Origin: Gemmatimonadaceae bacterium
Lineage (GTDB): Bacteria > Gemmatimonadota > Gemmatimonadetes > Gemmatimonadales > Gemmatimonadaceae
Assembly (NCBI GenBank): GCA_020851035.1
Contig: JADZDM010000020.1
Location: 1-64,000, forward strand
DNA: 64,000 nt
Direction: 5' to 3'
The translations under genes were made by a program, and so were the position numbers. Each line of letters begins with the position of its first letter. The stretch's first letter is position 1. Shown here piece by piece: positions 4,336-30,584 of this stretch. The notes under the pieces were generated by a model. That model saw only the letters and a list, made by a program, of their open reading frames with translations. It was not told the DNA's origin and made no database searches.

Positions 4336-4659
4336 TTACATCGCCGGTGCAGGAGCAGCAGCCGGGGCCTTCTTGGAAGCGCGCTTGCCGGCCTTCTTGG
4401 CGCCGCGCTTCGCAGCCTTCTTGGCGCCCTTCTTGGCAGCCTTGCGGCCACCCTTCTTGGCAGCCTTCTTTGCGCCCTTCTTTGCAGCCTTCTTGGCGCC
4501 CTTCTTGGCAGCCTTCTTGGCGCCCTTCTTGGCGGCCTTCTTGGCTCCCTTCTTTGCGCCCTTCTTGGCGACGCGCTTCGTGCCCTTCTTCGCGGCGCGC
4601 TTGGCGCCCTTCTTGGCGGCGCGCTTGGCGCCCTTCTTCGCAGCCTTCTTTGCAGCCAT
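4336..4659 (-). CDS. Lys/Ala-rich histone H1-like DNA-binding protein
   Basis: A 107-residue protein made almost entirely of KKAAKKG/AKRAAKKG repeats (about residues 3-95) and ending in an APAAAPAPAM tail. It is predicted to be extremely basic and to bind DNA without sequence preference, like the C-terminal tail of histone H1 and bacterial AlgP/HC1-type proteins. There is no globular domain. At DNA level the gene is an array of near-identical 12-15 bp units, so its length is likely to vary between strains. It is flanked by hairpins on both sides. Nucleoid binding is an inference from composition. Confidence 0.75.
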   Translation of the reverse strand: MAAKKAAKKGAKRAAKKGAKRAAKKGTKRVAKKGAKKGAKKAAKKGAKKAAKKGAKKAAKKGAKKAAKKGGRKAAKKGAKKAAKRGAKKAGKRASKKAPAAAPAPAM

Positions 4660-20575: not shown

Positions 20576-22525
20576 TCAGCGTCGTGCTGCCTTCTTTGCA
20601 GGCGCCTTTGCCGCGGCCTTCTTCGCGGGTGCGGCTGGCTTCCTGGCGACCACCGCCGGCTTTGCGGGAGCGGCCTTTGCCTGCTTGGCGGGCGCCGGCT
20701 TGGCGGGCGCCGGCTTCGCGGGCGCCTTCTTCGCAGCGGCGCGACCGGCCGGTGCCTTGGCCTGCGGCGTCTTCGGTGCCGGCTTGCCGGCGGGTGCCCT
20801 GACAGCGGGCGGTGCAGCCACGGCGACCGGATCCGGCGTGGGTGCAGCGGCCGGCGCCGCGACATCATCCACCACACCGACCATCAACAGGCCCGGGGGG
20901 GGTGCCGAGAGACGGCCACGCATGCCGCCGCGCGACACCATGCCGCGTGGAGCGGGCGGTCCGGCCGGTGCCTTCGGCGCGTGCGTCTCCTCGTGTTTCG
21001 CGAGCTGTTCCGAGACGCCGGCGACTTCCTGCACCGGTGCCACTTCCCAGGTATCGCCACGCTTGCGCAGGTCGACGACGTCCGCGTCATGTGCATCCTG
21101 GAGGATGCGCGTGAAGTTCCGCTCGCTGAGGCTCTCGCTGTCACGGCCGAGGATGCCAGCGGCGCTTTCGCGCACCAGCTGCATGGCGACCGGCCGGTCG
21201 TCCGTGACGGTGGCGGCGACCGCCTTGCGCACGAGGTCGAATGCCTCGTTGCGGGTGAGGCGCTCACCGGCGAGGCCGATGGTGTCACGTCCCTGTGCGA
21301 CCCGTGCGGCAGGCTCGGGGGCCCGCGGCGCGGGCTCCGGGCGCGGCGTCTCGCTGCGCGGGGTGTGCTCGCGGCGGGGCGGCCGGTCCGGCCGCGGGGC
21401 GCGGGCCGGCGGCGCGGCGACCACCGCCACCTCGTCCGGCGCGTCGTCGTCGGACGGGGCGGCCTCGATGCCGTCGATCGCGACATCGGTGCCGGCGGCG
21501 ACCGCCGTCGAGACCACGTCACCGAGAGCACGCTCGGCGCGCGGCTCGCGGTCACGACCGCCGCGTCCACGCCCGCGGCCGCGGCGCCGGCGACCACTGC
21601 GCTCCTCGCCGTCCTTCTCCTCCTTCTCGGCCGCCTCGTCCAGCGCACCGGCGACGTCGCTGCTGGCGATGGCCGGCGCGGTGCCGGCCCGTGCGCCCGG
21701 CGGGGCGATCTCGAACTGGCCGTTCTCGAGGCGGGTGAGCGTGAGCAGCCCCTTCTGCGCGGCCTCCTGCACGAACTTGGAGAACTTCGACATGCCGAGG
21801 TTCTTCTCGTCGAACCCGTTGTCGATGTCCTGCATGACCTGCTTGAGCCGGTCGGCGCGCATCACGTCGCCGTTGCGCACCATGCGTGCGAGCGACTCGG
21901 TGACGAGTTCCCAGGGGTCGCGCTTCACTGTCTCCTCGTCGCTGGTCTTCACCAGGCCGGCGAGGGCGTTGTAGCTGTAGTATTCGTCGCAGTTCATCAC
22001 CAGCAGATCGCTGGAGCTCTCGCGGATGCCGACGCCGATGACGTACTTGCCGTACTCCTTGAGCTTCATGACCATGCTCGAGAAGTCGGAGTCGCCGGAG
22101 AGCAGGATGAAGGTCCCGATCTCGGGGCGCGTGAACATCAGCTCGACGGCGTCGATGGCGAGGCGGATGTCGGTGGCGTTCTTCTTGGAGCTGCCATAGG
22201 CCGGCGCCATGATCATGTCGATCGACGACTCGGCGAGCGGCACGACGTATTGCGGGTAGCGGCGCCAGTCCGCGTAGGCGCGCTGGACGGCGACCTTGCC
22301 CTTGATGATGTCCGACGAGAGGAGGTTCTTGAGCTCCGTCTGCAGGTCGGAGCGGATGCCCATCGTGACGTTGTCGAAGTCGATGAGCAGGGCGGCGTTG
22401 GGCGCCTGGCCGTAGTGCTGGTAACTCGGGGAGGCCGAAGCATTCGTGCTGCTGGCCTGCGGCCCGCGGTGCACCGGGGCGATGGGCCCTCGGGGTGCTC
22501 CCGGGCGCGACGTGCGTCCGTTCAT
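20576..22525 (-). CDS. NYN-domain ribonuclease with two OST-HTH/LOTUS domains and Lys/Ala/Pro tail
   Basis: A 649-residue protein. NYN/LabA PIN-like nuclease domain at about 44-190, with acidic metal-site residues Asp49 and Asp51 (LLIDFDN), Asp119 (KNATDIRLAIDA) and Asp145 and Asp147 (SGDSDF). A first OST-HTH/LOTUS domain lies at about 203-275, then a basic Arg/Gly-rich region (311-330), an acidic/Pro linker, a second LOTUS domain (about 423-497) and a PAKPAPAK-type basic tail (565-649). LOTUS domains bind RNA, often G-rich, so an RNA-processing or RNA-silencing role is likely. The ATG at 22525 has only a weak ribosome-binding site. Divergent from the histidine kinase operon. Confidence 0.85.
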   Translation of the reverse strand: MNGRTSRPGAPRGPIAPVHRGPQASSTNASASPSYQHYGQAPNAALLIDFDNVTMGIRSDLQTELKNLLSSDIIKGKVAVQRAYADWRRYPQYVVPLAESSIDMIMAPAYGSSKKNATDIRLAIDAVELMFTRPEIGTFILLSGDSDFSSMVMKLKEYGKYVIGVGIRESSSDLLVMNCDEYYSYNALAGLVKTSDEETVKRDPWELVTESLARMVRNGDVMRADRLKQVMQDIDNGFDEKNLGMSKFSKFVQEAAQKGLLTLTRLENGQFEIAPPGARAGTAPAIASSDVAGALDEAAEKEEKDGEERSGRRRRGRGRGRGGRDREPRAERALGDVVSTAVAAGTDVAIDGIEAAPSDDDAPDEVAVVAAPPARAPRPDRPPRREHTPRSETPRPEPAPRAPEPAARVAQGRDTIGLAGERLTRNEAFDLVRKAVAATVTDDRPVAMQLVRESAAGILGRDSESLSERNFTRILQDAHDADVVDLRKRGDTWEVAPVQEVAGVSEQLAKHEETHAPKAPAGPPAPRGMVSRGGMRGRLSAPPPGLLMVGVVDDVAAPAAAPTPDPVAVAAPPAVRAPAGKPAPKTPQAKAPAGRAAAKKAPAKPAPAKPAPAKQAKAAPAKPAVVARKPAAPAKKAAAKAPAKKAARR

Positions 22526-22802: not shown

Positions 22803-24035
22803 GTGACCCGCCTGGGGTTCCGCACCCGCCTGCTGCTGATCCTGATGGCGTTCGCCATCCTGCCGGCAGCGGCACTCACCACCGTCGGGCTCCTGGCGGC
22901 GAACCGGGCGCTGCCGTTCATGGCGTCCGGCGGCGCGTGGTCTCGTGTGGCCGAGACCGGTAACCGGGCGCTCGTCACGGCCCGCGCCGGCACGACCGAC
23001 CGGGAGGCGCGGGCCGCGCTGGATGCACACGAGGCGGAACTGCGCGCGTCGCTCGACCAGGCGAAGCGGCTGGAGTTTCTCGCGCCACGCGTGATCCGGC
23101 CGGTGCTGGTGGTGGTGGCGGTGCTCTTCCTCGGTCTCGCGCTGCTGGCGGGTCGAGCGGCCGGCCACCTGAGCCGCCAGCTCAGCCGGCCGCTGGATGA
23201 GGTGGTGGACTGGACCGAGCGCATCGCACGGGCCGACCCGTTGCCGTCGGGGCCGCCGAGTCGCGGTGCCCCGGAGTTCGACGTACTTCGATCGAGGATG
23301 CGGACGATGGCCATGCAGCTCGACGCCGGACGCACGGCCGCCACCGAGGCGGCCCGGCTCGGTGCGTTCCGCGAGACGGCCCGTCGGGTGGCGCACGAGC
23401 TGAAGAACCCGCTCACGCCCATCCGCTTCGCCGTCGCCCGCCTGCGCCAGTCGGCCGCGCCCGACCTGCACGACACCATCGACGTGCTCGAGACCGAGGT
23501 GCAGCGCCTCGACACGCTGGCCCGCAGCTTCGCACAGTTCGGCCGCCTGCCGGACGGCCCCGCCGCCGACGTGGACATCGCCGAACTGCTGCGCTACGCC
23601 GCACGCACCACGCTGCCACCCACGGCGACCGTCACGCTCGACATCGCCGACGGACTGCCGTTCGTGCCGGGCCACCACGACGCGCTGGCCCGCGCCGTCA
23701 GCAACGTGCTGCTGAACGCCGCCGATGCCGCAGGCCCGCAGGCCACCATCACCATCTCCGCGCGCGCCATCGACACGCCGGTCCCGTCGGTGCGCGTCCA
23801 GGTGCACGACAGCGGACCGGGCATCGCCGCCGACACGCTGCAGCGCATCTGGGAGCCGTACGTCACCACCAAGCCGGGCGGCACCGGCCTCGGGCTCGCC
23901 ATCGTGCGGCAGACGATCCTTGCACACGGCGGCAGTGTCGACGCGCGGAGCGCCGGCAATGGCGCAGGCACCACCATCTCCCTCACCCTGCCAGTGATGC
24001 GCGACGCACCGGAGCCCGGGCACCACAGTGGATGA
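22803..24035 (+). CDS. NtrY-like membrane sensor histidine kinase
   Basis: A 410-residue kinase. Two membrane helices (about 9-31 and 97-117) enclose a short (about 65-residue) Ala/Arg-rich outer loop; a HAMP-like segment follows (118-145). The H-box RRVAHELKNPLTPI has phospho-accepting His198, and the ATPase domain has DSGPGIA and GGTGLGLAI. The short loop suggests it senses a membrane or protein partner rather than a large ligand. First gene of a seven-to-eight gene block: four paralogous membrane proteins follow, then an NtrC-type activator that is its obvious partner. It overlaps the next gene by 8 bp. Confidence 0.9.
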   Translation: MTRLGFRTRLLLILMAFAILPAAALTTVGLLAANRALPFMASGGAWSRVAETGNRALVTARAGTTDREARAALDAHEAELRASLDQAKRLEFLAPRVIRPVLVVVAVLFLGLALLAGRAAGHLSRQLSRPLDEVVDWTERIARADPLPSGPPSRGAPEFDVLRSRMRTMAMQLDAGRTAATEAARLGAFRETARRVAHELKNPLTPIRFAVARLRQSAAPDLHDTIDVLETEVQRLDTLARSFAQFGRLPDGPAADVDIAELLRYAARTTLPPTATVTLDIADGLPFVPGHHDALARAVSNVLLNAADAAGPQATITISARAIDTPVPSVRVQVHDSGPGIAADTLQRIWEPYVTTKPGGTGLGLAIVRQTILAHGGSVDARSAGNGAGTTISLTLPVMRDAPEPGHHSG

Positions 24036-24348
24036 AGACATCATCGTCCCGGTCGCCTTCTTCCTCACGGTGATCGTGATGGGACTCGGCATTCCCCTCG
24101 TTCGCGCGGCGATCCGCCGCGGGGATCGCCAGGCGCTGCCCACCGGCATGTCGCCGGAACTGGCGAGCCGGCTCGACCGACTCGAGGCGATGGTGGAGAC
24201 GGTGGCGATCGAGGTGGAGCGGATGGCCGAGGGCCAGCGGTTCACCACGCGACTGATGACGGAGGGCGCGGCGCGCATGGTGCCGCCGCCGCCCGCAGCG
24301 ATGCAGCCCGCGCCCGTGCGGGACAACCCCGAGGTGACGCATGCGTGA
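24028..24348 (+). CDS. Small membrane protein, paralog 1 of 4 (EVERxxEGQR family)
   Basis: 106 residues: an N-terminal membrane helix (about 6-27), basic RAAIRRGDR flank, then the shared amphipathic helix (44-79) with the core ETVAIEVERMAEGQRFTTRL. It ends in a Pro-rich tail. It is the only one of the four paralogs without the DG-hairpin domain on the other side of the membrane. It overlaps the kinase and the next paralog by 8 bp each, so the set is translated as one coupled unit. I do not recognise a named family. By the positive-inside rule the conserved helix is cytoplasmic. Confidence 0.8.
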   Translation: MDEDIIVPVAFFLTVIVMGLGIPLVRAAIRRGDRQALPTGMSPELASRLDRLEAMVETVAIEVERMAEGQRFTTRLMTEGAARMVPPPPAAMQPAPVRDNPEVTHA

Positions 24349-24937
24349 ACTGACACAGGCTGGCAGTGCGCCGGCACAGGCGGCCGCGCCGACCGCCGCC
24401 GAGATGGCGCGCATCGATGCGCAGCTGGAGCTGGCCGCGAAGAAGGCCGCGCTGGCCGGCATGGAACGCGCGGCGCAGGGCGGCGATGCCACGGCGCCCG
24501 CTGCGCCACCGCCGCCGGGTGAAGGGGTCACGGTGATCACGGTGGACCAGGACGGCCGCACCACCACGCTCACCAATCCGTCGGCCGAGCAATTGGCACA
24601 GGCCGGCGTCGGCACGGCTCCGGCGCCGATGCCGAACGGGAACCTGATCGTGACACTGACCGTCGCGTCGCTGACGGCGATCGTGCTGGTGGTGTGGATG
24701 GTGCTCAACTACCTCAAGCGCGGGCGCGGCAGCGCCCCATCGCGTGCTGACCAGGAGACCGCGGCGCGGATGGCGCGCATCGAGAACGCGGTGGAGTCGA
24801 TCGCGGTCGAGGTCGAGCGGATCAGTGAGGGGCAGCGCTACACTTCGCGCATGCTGTCCGAAGGGGCAGCGGAGCCAGTCAGGGTGGAGGCGCCGGCACA
24901 TGCCGGTGTCGTCCTGCAGAACCAGGGAGGGCTGTGA
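24341..24937 (+). CDS. Small membrane protein, paralog 2 of 4 (EVERxxEGQR family)
   Basis: 198 residues: N-terminal helical segment (15-46, Ala/Lys/Glu-rich), Pro-rich spacer, a short beta-hairpin-like motif (VTVITVDQDGRTTTL, 63-77), one membrane helix (101-124) followed by KRGRG, then the shared helix (142-173, ESIAVEVERISEGQRYTSR) and a C-terminal tail. The N-terminal part is predicted outside and the shared helix inside, without a cleavable signal. It overlaps paralog 1 by 8 bp and paralog 3 by 4 bp. Function unknown; candidate kinase-associated adaptor. Confidence 0.8.
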   Translation: MRELTQAGSAPAQAAAPTAAEMARIDAQLELAAKKAALAGMERAAQGGDATAPAAPPPPGEGVTVITVDQDGRTTTLTNPSAEQLAQAGVGTAPAPMPNGNLIVTLTVASLTAIVLVVWMVLNYLKRGRGSAPSRADQETAARMARIENAVESIAVEVERISEGQRYTSRMLSEGAAEPVRVEAPAHAGVVLQNQGGL

Positions 24938-25533
24938 GGATGCACGCAGGGTCGAGTCAGTCCCCACGCGAGGCGGCGGCCGTGGCACGCGAGCAGGCCC
25001 AGGCGGCGCGCGCCGAGGCGCAGGAGCAGGCACAGGCGGTGCGCGCGGAGGCGCAGGAACAGGCGCAGGCCGCCCGCGAGCAGGCCCAGGCGGCACGCGA
25101 GGAGGCGCAGGCGGCGCGCGAGTCGGCCCGTGAGGGCCAGGCCGACGGCGCCAGCGATGCCGTGGTGACGATCACGAAGGACGGCCAGACCATCACGCTC
25201 AAGGGCGCGTCACCGGAGGCGGTGGCGACGGCGCTCGGCATGCCCCTGCCGGAACAGCGGGAAGAGAGCGATGGTCCCTATGTCGTCGGTGCGCTGGCGA
25301 TTCTGTCGACGGCAGCGGTGGTGCTGGCCGCCGTGACGATGTGGTACCGCACGAGGATGCGCACCCTCTCCGGCGGTGCCACGCCGATGCCGGCCGAGCT
25401 CACGCAGCGGATGGCCCGCATGGAGACCGCCATCGAGTCGGTGGCCATCGAAGTCGAACGCATCAGCGAGGGACAGCGGTTCACGACCCGCCTGCTCTCG
25501 GATCGCTCTCCAGTGGAGGTTCCGCGTGGTTGA
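24934..25533 (+). CDS. Small membrane protein, paralog 3 of 4, with long coiled coil
   Basis: 199 residues: a long Ala/Gln/Glu/Arg coiled-coil region (13-70, repeated AREQAQAAR and AEAQEQAQ units), the DG-hairpin motif (VVTITKDGQTITLKG, 77-91), one membrane helix (116-137) with RTRMR on its inner side, and the shared helix (156-189, ESVAIEVERISEGQRFTTR). A GTG start overlapping the previous stop (GTGA) is used. The DNA of the coiled coil is internally repetitive and may vary in length. The coiled coil suggests this paralog drives oligomerisation in the envelope. Confidence 0.8.
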   Translation: MRMHAGSSQSPREAAAVAREQAQAARAEAQEQAQAVRAEAQEQAQAAREQAQAAREEAQAARESAREGQADGASDAVVTITKDGQTITLKGASPEAVATALGMPLPEQREESDGPYVVGALAILSTAAVVLAAVTMWYRTRMRTLSGGATPMPAELTQRMARMETAIESVAIEVERISEGQRFTTRLLSDRSPVEVPRG

Positions 25534-26011
25534 GGTCCCCATGGCGCAGTCCGGCCCAGCCCAGGCTCCCGCCCCGCCGGCACCGGCGCAGGCCCCCGAG
25601 GCACCGGCCGTCGGCGTCGGCACCGAGCAACCGGCGCCGGGGCGCATCACGATCCAGAAGGATGGCAAGACGATCACGCTCGACGGGGCCACCGGCGCCG
25701 GCGGGGACGTGGCCACGGTCGGCTTTCCCGGCGGCCCCCCGGACATCCCGTCGAACGTGTACATGCTGGCGAAGGACGGCATCGTCGGCTTCACGCTCAT
25801 GGTCATCGCCTTCCCGGTGTTCGGCTTCCTGAAGGCGCTGGTCGTGCGCCGCGCGAACACGCAGGCGGCGCTGCCGGCGCGGGACACCACCGACCGCCTG
25901 CAGCGCATCGAGGCCGCCGTCGAGGCGATGTCGGTGGAAGTCGAGCGCATCAGCGAGGGCCAGCGTTTCGTGACCCGCGTGCTCAGCGAGCGCAGTTCGG
26001 CGCAGCCCTGA
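25526..26011 (+). CDS. Small membrane protein, paralog 4 of 4 (EVERxxEGQR family)
   Basis: 161 residues: Pro/Ala-rich N-terminus (8-38), DG-hairpin motif (ITIQKDGKTITLDG, 41-54), one membrane helix (about 86-106) with VVRRAN flank, and the shared helix (121-155, EAMSVEVERISEGQRFVTR). The GTG at 25526 reproduces the 8-bp overlap seen between the other members; an ATG at 25541 with GAGG five bases upstream is the alternative. It ends 9 bp before the response-regulator gene. Confidence 0.8.
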   Translation: MVEVPMAQSGPAQAPAPPAPAQAPEAPAVGVGTEQPAPGRITIQKDGKTITLDGATGAGGDVATVGFPGGPPDIPSNVYMLAKDGIVGFTLMVIAFPVFGFLKALVVRRANTQAALPARDTTDRLQRIEAAVEAMSVEVERISEGQRFVTRVLSERSSAQP

Positions 26012-26020
26012 CCGCCGGCA

Positions 26021-27445
26021 ATGCCCAGCGTCCTGATCGTCGACGACGAGCCGAACATCCGCCGGATGGTCGGGGCGCTGCTCGCAGGCGAGGGCTACGA
26101 AGTGCGTGATGCGCCGGACGGTCATGCCGCCTTCACCCGGGCGCTCGACGCCGAGCCGGACGTGGTCCTGATGGACCTGATGATGCCCAACGACACCGAT
26201 GGGCTGGAGACGCTGGCGAAGTTCCGCGAACGTTTTCCCGAGCTGCCGGTGGTGATGATGAGCGGGCGCGCCGGCCTGAGCGACGCCGTGAAGGCGACGC
26301 GCCTGGGCGCCTTCACCTTCCTCGAGAAGCCGCTCACCCCCGAGGGCACGCTGCTGGCGCTGGCCTCGGCGCTGGAACTGCGGCAGGCCCGCCGCGCGGC
26401 ACGCACGCTGCGCGAGGATCTCGGGCTGGCCGGTGGCCTCGTGGGCGACAGTCCGGCCATGCAGCAGGTGCGTGAACTGATCGCCCGCGTGGCGCCGAGC
26501 GATGCCCGGGTGCTGATCAGCGGCGAGTCGGGCACGGGCAAGGAGCTGGTGGCCGGCGCCCTGCACACCGGCAGCCCACGGCGTGACCGGGCGTACGTGC
26601 GCACCAACTGCGCTGCGATCCCGCGCGACCTGGTGGAGAGCGAGATGTTCGGCCACGAACGCGGCGCCTTCACCGGCGCCACCGATCGCCGCATCGGCCG
26701 CTTCGAGCTGGCGCACGGCGGCACGCTGTTCCTGGACGAGGTGGGCGACCTGGGCGTCGAGGCGCAGGCCAAGCTGCTGCGCGCGATCGAGGCGAAGGAG
26801 ATCGAGCGTGTGGGTGGCGGGAAGCCGATCCGCGTGGACGTGCGCATCATCGCCGCCACCAATCGCGACCTCGAGGCGGCGGTGCGCGACGGCAGCTTCC
26901 GCGAGGATCTCTTCTTCCGGCTGAACGTGATCCCGATGACGCTGCCGCCGCTGCGTGACCGTCCCGAGGACATCGGGCAGCTGGTGCTGCACTTCACCGC
27001 GCTCCATCGCGCGCGGACCGGCCGGCCGGCCCCGACGTTCAGCGTCGAGGCGCTGGCGGCGCTGCGGGCGCACCGCTGGCCGGGCAACGTGCGCGAGCTG
27101 GCGAACATCGTGGAGCGGCTGGCGATCCTGCACCCGGGTCGCGAGCTGCGCGTGGGTGACGTGCACGACGTGCTGCCGGCGCCTCGAACTGGCGATGCGG
27201 CATCGTCGCCGGGGCTGCCGCGCCTGGATGGAACGGCGCTGCCGCTGAGCGACGCGCTGGACGCCTACGAGCGCCAGCTGATCGTGCGTGCGCTGGACGA
27301 CACCGCCGGCAACGTGGCCGAGGCCGCGCGACGGCTGCAGACGGATCGCCCCAACCTGTACCGGCGAATGAAGCGACTTGGCATCGGTGGTGGCATGCAG
27401 GACTTGCGGGCCGTGCCCCACGGCGAGCTGCGGCGGGACGCGTGA
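26021..27445 (+). CDS. NtrC-family sigma-54-dependent response regulator
   Basis: 474 residues: receiver domain (1-120) with Asp8, Asp9, phospho-acceptor Asp52 and Lys103; AAA+ domain with Walker A GESGTGKE (168-175), the sigma-54-contacting GAFTGA loop (215-220) and Walker [11 protein letters not shown]-terminal Fis-type helix-turn-helix (about 408-455, [22 protein letters not shown]). It therefore activates sigma-54 promoters when phosphorylated, presumably by the kinase at 22803. It resembles NtrX/NtrC more than AtoC. An RpoN gene is not in this window. Confidence 0.92.
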
Positions 27446-29208: not shown

Positions 29209-29237
29209 TGCGACACGCCGTGCCGCGACGGGTGGCC

Positions 29238-29891
29238 ATGCGCCGGCTGCTGCTGGGGTGCGCCGCGGCCGTCGCGCTGCTGTCGCCGGTGACCGCCGCG
29301 GTGGCGCAGGTGGACGCGCGACTCGAGCTGTCGCTGCCGCCGCGCGCCGTCGGTGGCGCCGAGGGCCCGGCCTTCACGCCGCATGCGGCCCTCGCGACAC
29401 GCGACCTGCGCGACCTGGTCCGCGGCGGCTTTCCCGCCCGGCTGCACTTCCGCTGCGAGCTGTGGCGCGATGAACGGCTCAACAACAACATCGCGGCGGC
29501 GGTGGAGTGGGACATGCTGGTGCGCTTCGACCAGCTGAGCCGCAAGTACGAGGTCTTCCGCATCGCCGAGAACAGGGTGAGCCGCCTGGGGCGCTTCGAC
29601 ACGGCCGAGGAGATGGAGGCGCTGGTGGGGCGGCCATACCGGATCATGGCGCCACCGATGGTGCGCGGCCGGCGGTACTACTACGACGCCAGCCTCGACA
29701 TCGAGGTCCTGAGCCTGAGTGACCTGGACGAAGTGGAGCGGTGGCTGCGCGGCGAGGTGCGGCCGGCGCTGCGTGGCGACCGCAACCCCGGGACGGCGGT
29801 CACGCGCACAGTGCGCAGTTTCTTCGTCAAGCTGCTGGGCGGCGAGCGGCGGCACTACCAGACGCAGTCGCGCACGTTCACGGCCGAATAG
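29238..29891 (+). CDS. Secreted DUF4390-like protein
   Basis: 217 residues with a signal peptide (1-23, LLLGCAAAVALLSPVTAAVAQ). The mature protein has the pattern of DUF4390: a strand-rich core (FPARLHFRCELWR, WDMLVRFDQLSRKYEVFR) followed by ALVGRPYRI and YYYDASLDIEVLSLSDLDEVERWLRG. In Proteobacteria DUF4390 genes commonly sit beside NtrY/NtrX-type two-component genes, which fits this position. The ATG at 29238 lies 29 bp after the barrel gene. Its function is unknown; it may be a periplasmic input for the kinase. Confidence 0.65.
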   Translation: MRRLLLGCAAAVALLSPVTAAVAQVDARLELSLPPRAVGGAEGPAFTPHAALATRDLRDLVRGGFPARLHFRCELWRDERLNNNIAAAVEWDMLVRFDQLSRKYEVFRIAENRVSRLGRFDTAEEMEALVGRPYRIMAPPMVRGRRYYYDASLDIEVLSLSDLDEVERWLRGEVRPALRGDRNPGTAVTRTVRSFFVKLLGGERRHYQTQSRTFTAE

Positions 29892-29909: not shown

Positions 29910-30584
29910 TCAGGCCGCGCCGGCGGCCTCCATGAATGCGGCGAGACGGCGCGGGTCGAGCGCGCCGTCGGTGCGCACGCCGGTGCACAGGTCGAGCCCG
30001 AACGGCTCGACGGCCCGGATGGCGTCGCCCACGTTGCCGGCGTGCAGGCCGCCGGCGAGGAAGACGGGGCGGCCGCAGCCGTCCCGGATGCGGCGCGAGA
30101 GGCCCCAGTCATGGGTGCGGCCGGTGCCGCCGAGTTCCCGCACGGGAGCCGTGAGCCGTCCCGAGTCGAGCAGCAGGGCATCCACCGAGGGGGCCACGGC
30201 GAGGGCGTACGCCACGCTCGCCTCGTCCTCCACGTGCACCACCTGCACGAGCGTGATGCCGGGAAGTTCGGCTCGCAGCGCGCGATGCACGTCGGGGGTG
30301 AGGTGATCCACGAGCTGCAGCGTGGTGGGCCGCGTGTGATGCTGCTGTGCCACGATCGCCTCGACGGTGACGGCGCTGGTGAGCAGGAAGGTCGCCACCG
30401 CGGGCGGCACGGTGGCGACGATCGCGGCGATGGTGTCCTCGTCCACGACGCCGGGGCCGCTGGGCATCCGGCTCACGAGCCCGAGCGCCGACGCGCCGTG
30501 CGCCACGGCGACGGCGGCTTCGTGCACACTGCTGATGCAACAGACCTTGACGCGTGGCGCGGTGACCACGTGGCGCGAGATCAC
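29910..30584 (-). CDS. trpF: Phosphoribosylanthranilate isomerase (TrpF) or TrpF-like protein
   Basis: 224 residues, TIM-barrel PRA isomerase family (tryptophan pathway step 3). Recognisable segments: VKVCCIS (13-19, family KICGIT, with general-base Cys15), LLLDSG (137-142, general-acid Asp140), GGTGRTHDW (152-160) and FLAGGLHAGNVGDAI (175-189). Deviations: second Cys for Gly in the first motif, LQLVD for VQLHG, and TGVRTDG for SGVE. The catalytic pair is retained, so activity is plausible. A GTG at 30584 overlapping the HNH gene stop (GTGA) is used. No other trp gene is nearby. Confidence 0.75.
   Translation of the reverse strand: MISRHVVTAPRVKVCCISSVHEAAVAVAHGASALGLVSRMPSGPGVVDEDTIAAIVATVPPAVATFLLTSAVTVEAIVAQQHHTRPTTLQLVDHLTPDVHRALRAELPGITLVQVVHVEDEASVAYALAVAPSVDALLLDSGRLTAPVRELGGTGRTHDWGLSRRIRDGCGRPVFLAGGLHAGNVGDAIRAVEPFGLDLCTGVRTDGALDPRRLAAFMEAAGAA

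Follow-up and report, generated by a model that had tools for sequence, protein, structure and literature searches.

Why should four small, related membrane-protein genes lie between the gene for a histidine kinase and that for its sigma-54 activator? This arrangement was noted at positions 24028-26011 of a 64,000-nucleotide stretch of Gemmatimonadaceae bacterium DNA (assembly GCA_020851035.1, contig JADZDM010000020.1, positions 1 to 64,000; the whole stretch is called the window here), in a sequence-only reading which proposed that the four proteins share a C-terminal helix and are wired to the two-component system. The four tandem open reading frames (ORFs), designated p1-p4, are present as it described, and by sequence they belong to an undescribed family of single-pass membrane proteins in Gemmatimonadota, of which they are divergent members in tandem; the family has a coiled-coil-like helix ending in ExQxFxxRLL. 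They are probably extra sensing or membrane-guarding parts of an envelope-sensing system and, at a little less than even confidence, we favour a role as accessory membrane subunits which would tune an envelope-stress kinase of an NtrYX-like system. The genes concerned are as follows (TM, transmembrane segment):

22803..24035, + strand: histidine kinase; TM1, helical periplasmic hairpin of ~60 residues, TM2, HAMP, HisKA (HELKNPLTPI) and HATPase, from Pfam, an AlphaFold2 model and alignments
24028..24348, + strand: p1, GTG start; short N-out tail, TM 24040-24096, shared (predicted cytoplasmic) helix 24169-24264
24341..24937, + strand: p2, ATG start; ~100-residue N-tail with a DGRTTTL hairpin, TM 24647-24703, shared helix 24767-24862
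24934 (GTG) or 24940 (ATG)..25533, + strand: p3; Ala/Gln/Arg/Glu-rich repeat 24984-25134, DGQTITL hairpin, TM 25282-25338, shared helix 25408-25503
25526 (GTG) or 25541 (ATG)..26011, + strand: p4; hairpin RITIQKDGKTITL 25643-25684, TM 25790-25846, shared helix 25895-25990
26021..27445, + strand: NtrC/NtrX-type response regulator; receiver, sigma-54 AAA+ domain with GAFTGA, Fis helix-turn-helix
27466..29208, + strand: exported outer-membrane barrel protein, a sub-threshold Omp85 match and a member of the conserved operon
29232..29891, + strand: exported DUF4390 (PlrP-like) orthologue, assigned by search and synteny, the window copy being missed by Pfam

Comparison with congeneric orthologues showed that p1-p4 are real genes, with codon position 3 the most variable and, in most comparisons, the C-terminal helix the best-conserved part. 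They lie on the same strand as the kinase and regulator genes, with 9 bp between p4 and the regulator. Overlaps of 4-8 bp had been claimed throughout; those of kinase with p1, p1 with p2 and p3 with p4 are each 8 bp, but that of p2 with p3 (4 bp) is present only if p3 uses its GTG start. As the genes overlap, translation of p1-p4 is likely to be coupled.

Each of the four proteins has one strong TM followed by the common helix (RLxRIE...EVERxSEGQRF.TRLLSE), confirming the shared EVERxxEGQR helix that had first been seen by eye, and a profile of this helix recovers the family phylum-wide, far beyond chance. The predicted division of the proteins was also borne out: p1 opens with its membrane helix, the DG hairpin is found in p2-p4 and p3 bears its Ala/Gln/Arg/Glu-rich repeat, while in a model of p4 a two-stranded hairpin (residues 40-53) gives way to two long helices, that of the TM at 76-115 and a second at 119-159, both modelled mostly with pLDDT >90. 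Lysine and arginine are richer C-terminal than N-terminal of the membrane helix in 65/66 linked members (those encoded beside the kinase or regulator) and the shared helix of p1-p4 is therefore predicted to be cytoplasmic (N-out/C-in). For p3 this topology would require a charged N-tail to be exported in the absence of any signal peptide.

That the proteins belong to no named family also held, as p1-p4 gave no convincing family in Pfam, NCBIfam, PHROG or PADLOC; the p4 model gave no significant Foldseek match and a sequence search of the PDB returned chance matches only. A defence system (no PADLOC match) and a mobile or viral origin (p1 without a match on plasmids, no meaningful PHROG match) were considered and rejected. 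With a profile built from 31 members (A1) the family was found in 134/200 genomes of the phylum, and the best 80 GTDB loci were all Gemmatimonadota (including Roseisolibacter, a Gemmatimonadota genus) except L081 and L087, which have no stated phylum. The family has thus so far been found in one bacterial phylum only; the GTDB scan relied on a single peptide pattern and relatives may exist in other phyla.

How closely do these genes keep to the two-component system? Of the 72 GTDB loci at which a member was called, 48 adjoin the orthologous kinase, the regulator or both; the remaining 24 adjoin neither. Multi-copy runs were found at 25/48 of the kinase/regulator loci and at 0/24 of the solo loci, copy number ranging from 1 to 4 at kinase/regulator loci and being 1 at every solo locus; one tandem pair without two-component neighbours (L039) came from a separate sample, and solo copies have no consistent neighbours. 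Two-thirds of the GTDB loci, and every multi-copy run among them, thus lie beside the two-component genes. At 32/35 examined Gemmatimonadaceae loci (part of which were picked because they had matches) one to four copies lie exactly between kinase and regulator on the same strand, mostly overlapping or <30 bp apart, with one copy at nine loci, two at 11, three at 10 and four at two. In a less biased count, read by hand, at least 35 of the 42 Gemmatimonadaceae genomes that have a DUF4390 orthologue carried a member just upstream of it on the same contig. A fusion with a kinase was not noticed among the listed ORFs, in which no systematic search for one was made.

Five other families of the same class (f2, f3, f4, f5 and f6) have the operon of kinase, regulator, barrel and DUF4390 genes, and the helix family was absent between kinase and regulator in all of their operon loci examined. 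The two genes are direct neighbours at the intact loci of f2, f3 and f5 and at one of the f6 loci; at the second f6 locus they are parted by a gap without a called gene, and in f4 by one or two unrelated genes (an endonuclease/exonuclease/phosphatase-family gene plus an unknown gene at L262:9433-11030, an unknown gene at L267:6773-7447), a separate kind of insertion at this site. Since these families have the operon without them, the helix genes are an insertion into an older operon, so that "inserted", the word of the sequence-only reading, holds literally. The Gemmatimonadaceae group together (support 93) in a tree of kinase plus regulator, and three loci without the family fall inside this group (two of them firmly placed), which makes a single lineage-specific insertion in Gemmatimonadaceae, later lost at these three loci, the simplest history. 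The tandem copies are not recent duplicates of each other: mean helix identity within one locus is 0.44, and for 57/60 a copy at some other locus has a more similar helix than the neighbouring copies do, suggesting that the paralogues are old and have been kept distinct, as expected of different subunits.

The kinase itself matched HisKA and HATPase, and HAMP weakly, in a Pfam scan in which no PAS domain was found, and outside the membrane its AlphaFold2 model consists of long helices alone, with no folded periplasmic sensor domain; the earlier description of it as NtrY-like is therefore correct for the HisKA and weak HAMP matches but not for PAS or a folded sensor. The regulator has the receiver-AAA+-Fis order of NtrX (Pfam and PDB match), its best PDB match being the full-length 5m7n ("Nitrogen assimilation regulatory protein"), and in NCBIfam it scored 444 for ntrC vs 407 for NtrX, both under cut-off; rpoN is present in the genome. 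PF14334 (DUF4390) was the top Pfam match for 10/10 orthologues of the last gene scanned (four over cut-off, two only at E 0.03-0.06). A sigma-54 -24/-12 element precedes the barrel gene, mostly by 36-65 bp, at 15/24 loci having a gap of at least 100 bp there, vs 0.11 expected from mononucleotide shuffles, a contrast somewhat flattered because the pattern was written after viewing the best-scoring sites. The barrel gene is thus a probable sigma-54 target of the NtrYX-like operon. Used genome-wide for a regulon, the sigma-54 pattern gave 94 matches vs 181 in the reversed control.

This operon resembles NtrYX/PlrSR systems in its kinase with H-box and HAMP, its NtrC/NtrX-type AAA+ regulator and its DUF4390 gene, which here lies beside the kinase-regulator pair as it does in a subset of NtrYX/PlrSR systems. 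PlrSR, which is an NtrYX system, has the DUF4390 protein PlrP as a third component, in work limited to Proteobacteria (PMC13001219). The window operon differs in that its kinase has neither PAS nor a folded PDC-like sensor, in the added barrel and helix-family genes, and in its phylum; DUF4390-containing NtrYX-like operons would thereby be extended to another phylum, with the barrel gene as probable sigma-54 target. As short single-pass proteins tied to one kinase, p1-p4 are like MgrB (with PhoQ), SafA and MzrA, where tuning through TM or helix has been shown while for p1-p4 it is proposed. A further small membrane regulator of a kinase is LiaF, with LiaS, although LiaF is larger. Up to four paralogues between kinase and regulator set the present proteins apart from MgrB, SafA and MzrA, as does the contact, shown for those and proposed for these; MgrB binds PhoQ through its TM (PMC8404706).

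Diverged homologues of the family also occur outside this operon. In f3, f6, f7 and f9, short TM-plus-helix proteins ending in ExQxFxxRLL are encoded directly before CesT_Tir and pspA, and the f3 copies form tandem arrays of up to five (five helix-family-like genes at L197:9536-10995, - strand). In f2, f3, f4 and f5 one copy is flanked by a BshC-like gene and murJ, which suggests a link to cell-wall precursor export; the order BshC-like, helix-family gene, MurJ-like, UvrC-like (names given by eye from sequence) is kept at L188, L190, L208, L210, L211, L213, L215, L216, L219, L221 and L224. Profile comparisons among the window, pspA-linked and murJ-linked sets gave 97-99% probability (98.4, 98.4 and 99.1%; reversed controls ≤5%, block-shuffled ≤65%), with some selection bias because the sets were first gathered with window-family models, and in a reverse search the murJ-linked profile found exactly the five members in genome G000. 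All three sets thus appear to be one Gemmatimonadota helix family. The window members are not encoded with pspA, pspC or pspF, PspA being on another contig; PspA is present in 29/30 Gemmatimonadaceae genomes, and the CesT_Tir-pspA pair lacks a helix gene in all ten Gemmatimonadaceae loci read.

How, then, might p1-p4 act? In the reading that we favour, a helix-family gene entered an older NtrYX/PlrSR-like operon a single time, between the kinase and regulator genes, and was then amplified to one to four distinct paralogues. The small proteins would use their helices to associate in the inner membrane, both among themselves and with the TM/HAMP region of the kinase; a disturbed membrane or envelope, the presumed signal, would lead them to shift the kinase/phosphatase balance, and the phosphorylated regulator would then, if control runs in this direction, drive sigma-54 transcription of the barrel and DUF4390 genes. 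We prefer it because the kinase has no folded sensor, linkage holds at 32/35 loci, multi-copy runs are confined to linked loci, RLxRIE is more constrained in linked copies (see below), the operon has a DUF4390 gene and, in relatives, a sigma-54 site, and there are precedents in MgrB-PhoQ and in PspB, which binds the histidine kinase ArcB (PMC2764110). Several observations weigh against it. Three Gemmatimonadaceae loci keep kinase and regulator without helix genes, so that these are not essential for the pair; kinase HAMP and H-box are alike with and without the family, with no obvious residue changes in alignments; and the window locus itself has no sigma-54 site, the gap before its barrel gene being closed to 20 bp. 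In a comparison of 81 linked and 34 solo helices the distal EVERxSEGQRF was equally invariant in solo copies, which have no two-component neighbour, though the search pattern had fixed E16 and Q24 and held the other positions of this part to one or two choices. Left untouched by the pattern, the membrane-proximal RLxRIE was tighter in linked than in solo copies (R 100 vs 64%, R 95 vs 70%, E 98 vs 73%), a lead and not a test because the sequences are related. The distal part suggests a common partner or self-assembly, and the proximal part possibly makes a locus-specific contact. The idea that the helix is wired to this two-component system is therefore favoured by linkage conserved across Gemmatimonadaceae, but not by the equal conservation of the helix in solo copies, nor by the family's diverged homologues, which lie in pspA operons or ahead of murJ.

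The pspA neighbourhoods also allow a different account, in which the helix is a docking site for a common cytoplasmic partner, either PspA, which remodels membranes in an ESCRT-III-like way, or some other protein, much as PspB and PspC hold PspA in E. coli, and p1-p4 serve PspB-like membrane maintenance while merely being co-expressed with an envelope-stress system. The invariance of the distal helix in solo copies points to one such partner. The account also draws on the genes before CesT_Tir and pspA in four families and on the fact that Gemmatimonadaceae, which keep that pair without a helix gene, have the family elsewhere; but genus g17 has PspA and the kinase-regulator pair with no family member detected, and no sigma-54 site was found before the CesT_Tir-pspA genes. 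We regard this account, the main rival, as possible but doubtful, although the data are compatible with it as well as with the favoured reading; under it, too, the genes would define a membrane family that spans the phylum and is linked to PspA and MurJ. A combined version, with p1-p4 as a hetero-oligomeric inner-membrane sensor recruited once from the pspA-linked PspB-like family, which together with the periplasmic-side DUF4390 protein would replace the kinase's missing sensor through interchangeable single-helix paralogues, seems rather unlikely. Membership of PspB proper (PF06667) in diverged form is highly improbable. The short members match PspB in size and layout: an N-terminal TM followed by a cytoplasmic helix with leucine-zipper spacing is shared by p1 with most linked members (whose N-tails have a median of eight residues, those of p2-p4 being long), and relatives are encoded in a pspA operon. 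Moreover, PF06667 gave the one suggestive weak Pfam match, to p2 (E 0.04, 14.4 bits vs a gathering threshold of 25.6). Nevertheless, PF06667 stayed below cut-off in all 30 family genomes scanned and, among the matches listed, was met at E 1 by only 1/31, 0/14 and 0/11 members (set A3: first 25 families), while hhalign against E. coli PspB, used as a single sequence with no deep profile, gave probabilities of 4, 10 and 29% over 14-24 columns. The motif ExQxFxxRLL differs, and although PspB duplicates occur in psp operons (PMC11237479), a multi-paralogue set inserted between kinase and regulator is undescribed for PspB. Finally, the helices might homo- or hetero-oligomerise as a self-assembling scaffold or passenger with a structural role, their place in the operon being a historical accident. 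Such a part would suit the solo copies without consistent neighbours, the losses at the kinase-regulator locus and a helix whose hydrophobic residues keep an almost perfect 3-4 spacing and whose surface bears further invariant residues; retention across deep divergence at most Gemmatimonadaceae loci, in tight and mostly overlapping genes, and the extra RLxRIE constraint in kinase-linked copies make it unlikely. If instead p1-p4 do tune the kinase, a kinase without its own sensor would have had its input rebuilt from small membrane proteins of Psp-type origin, with the states before and after (insert absent or present, copies 0 to 4) both surviving in living relatives, and the origin of auxiliary sensing proteins would thereby be testable.

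Other genes in the window were noted in passing. Divergent from the kinase gene is one for an NYN-domain protein (20576-22474, - strand) that weakly matches OST-HTH/LOTUS and has a long tail, histone-H1-like and rich in Lys, Ala and Pro; most Gemmatimonadaceae loci, and both f3 loci, have the NYN gene upstream of the kinase. A 107-residue histone-H1-like protein with KKAAKKG-type repeats and no Pfam match is encoded at 4336-4659 (- strand). Directly after the operon in this genus is a trpF-like (phosphoribosylanthranilate isomerase) ORF (29910-30584, - strand), which is absent from this position in most other loci examined.

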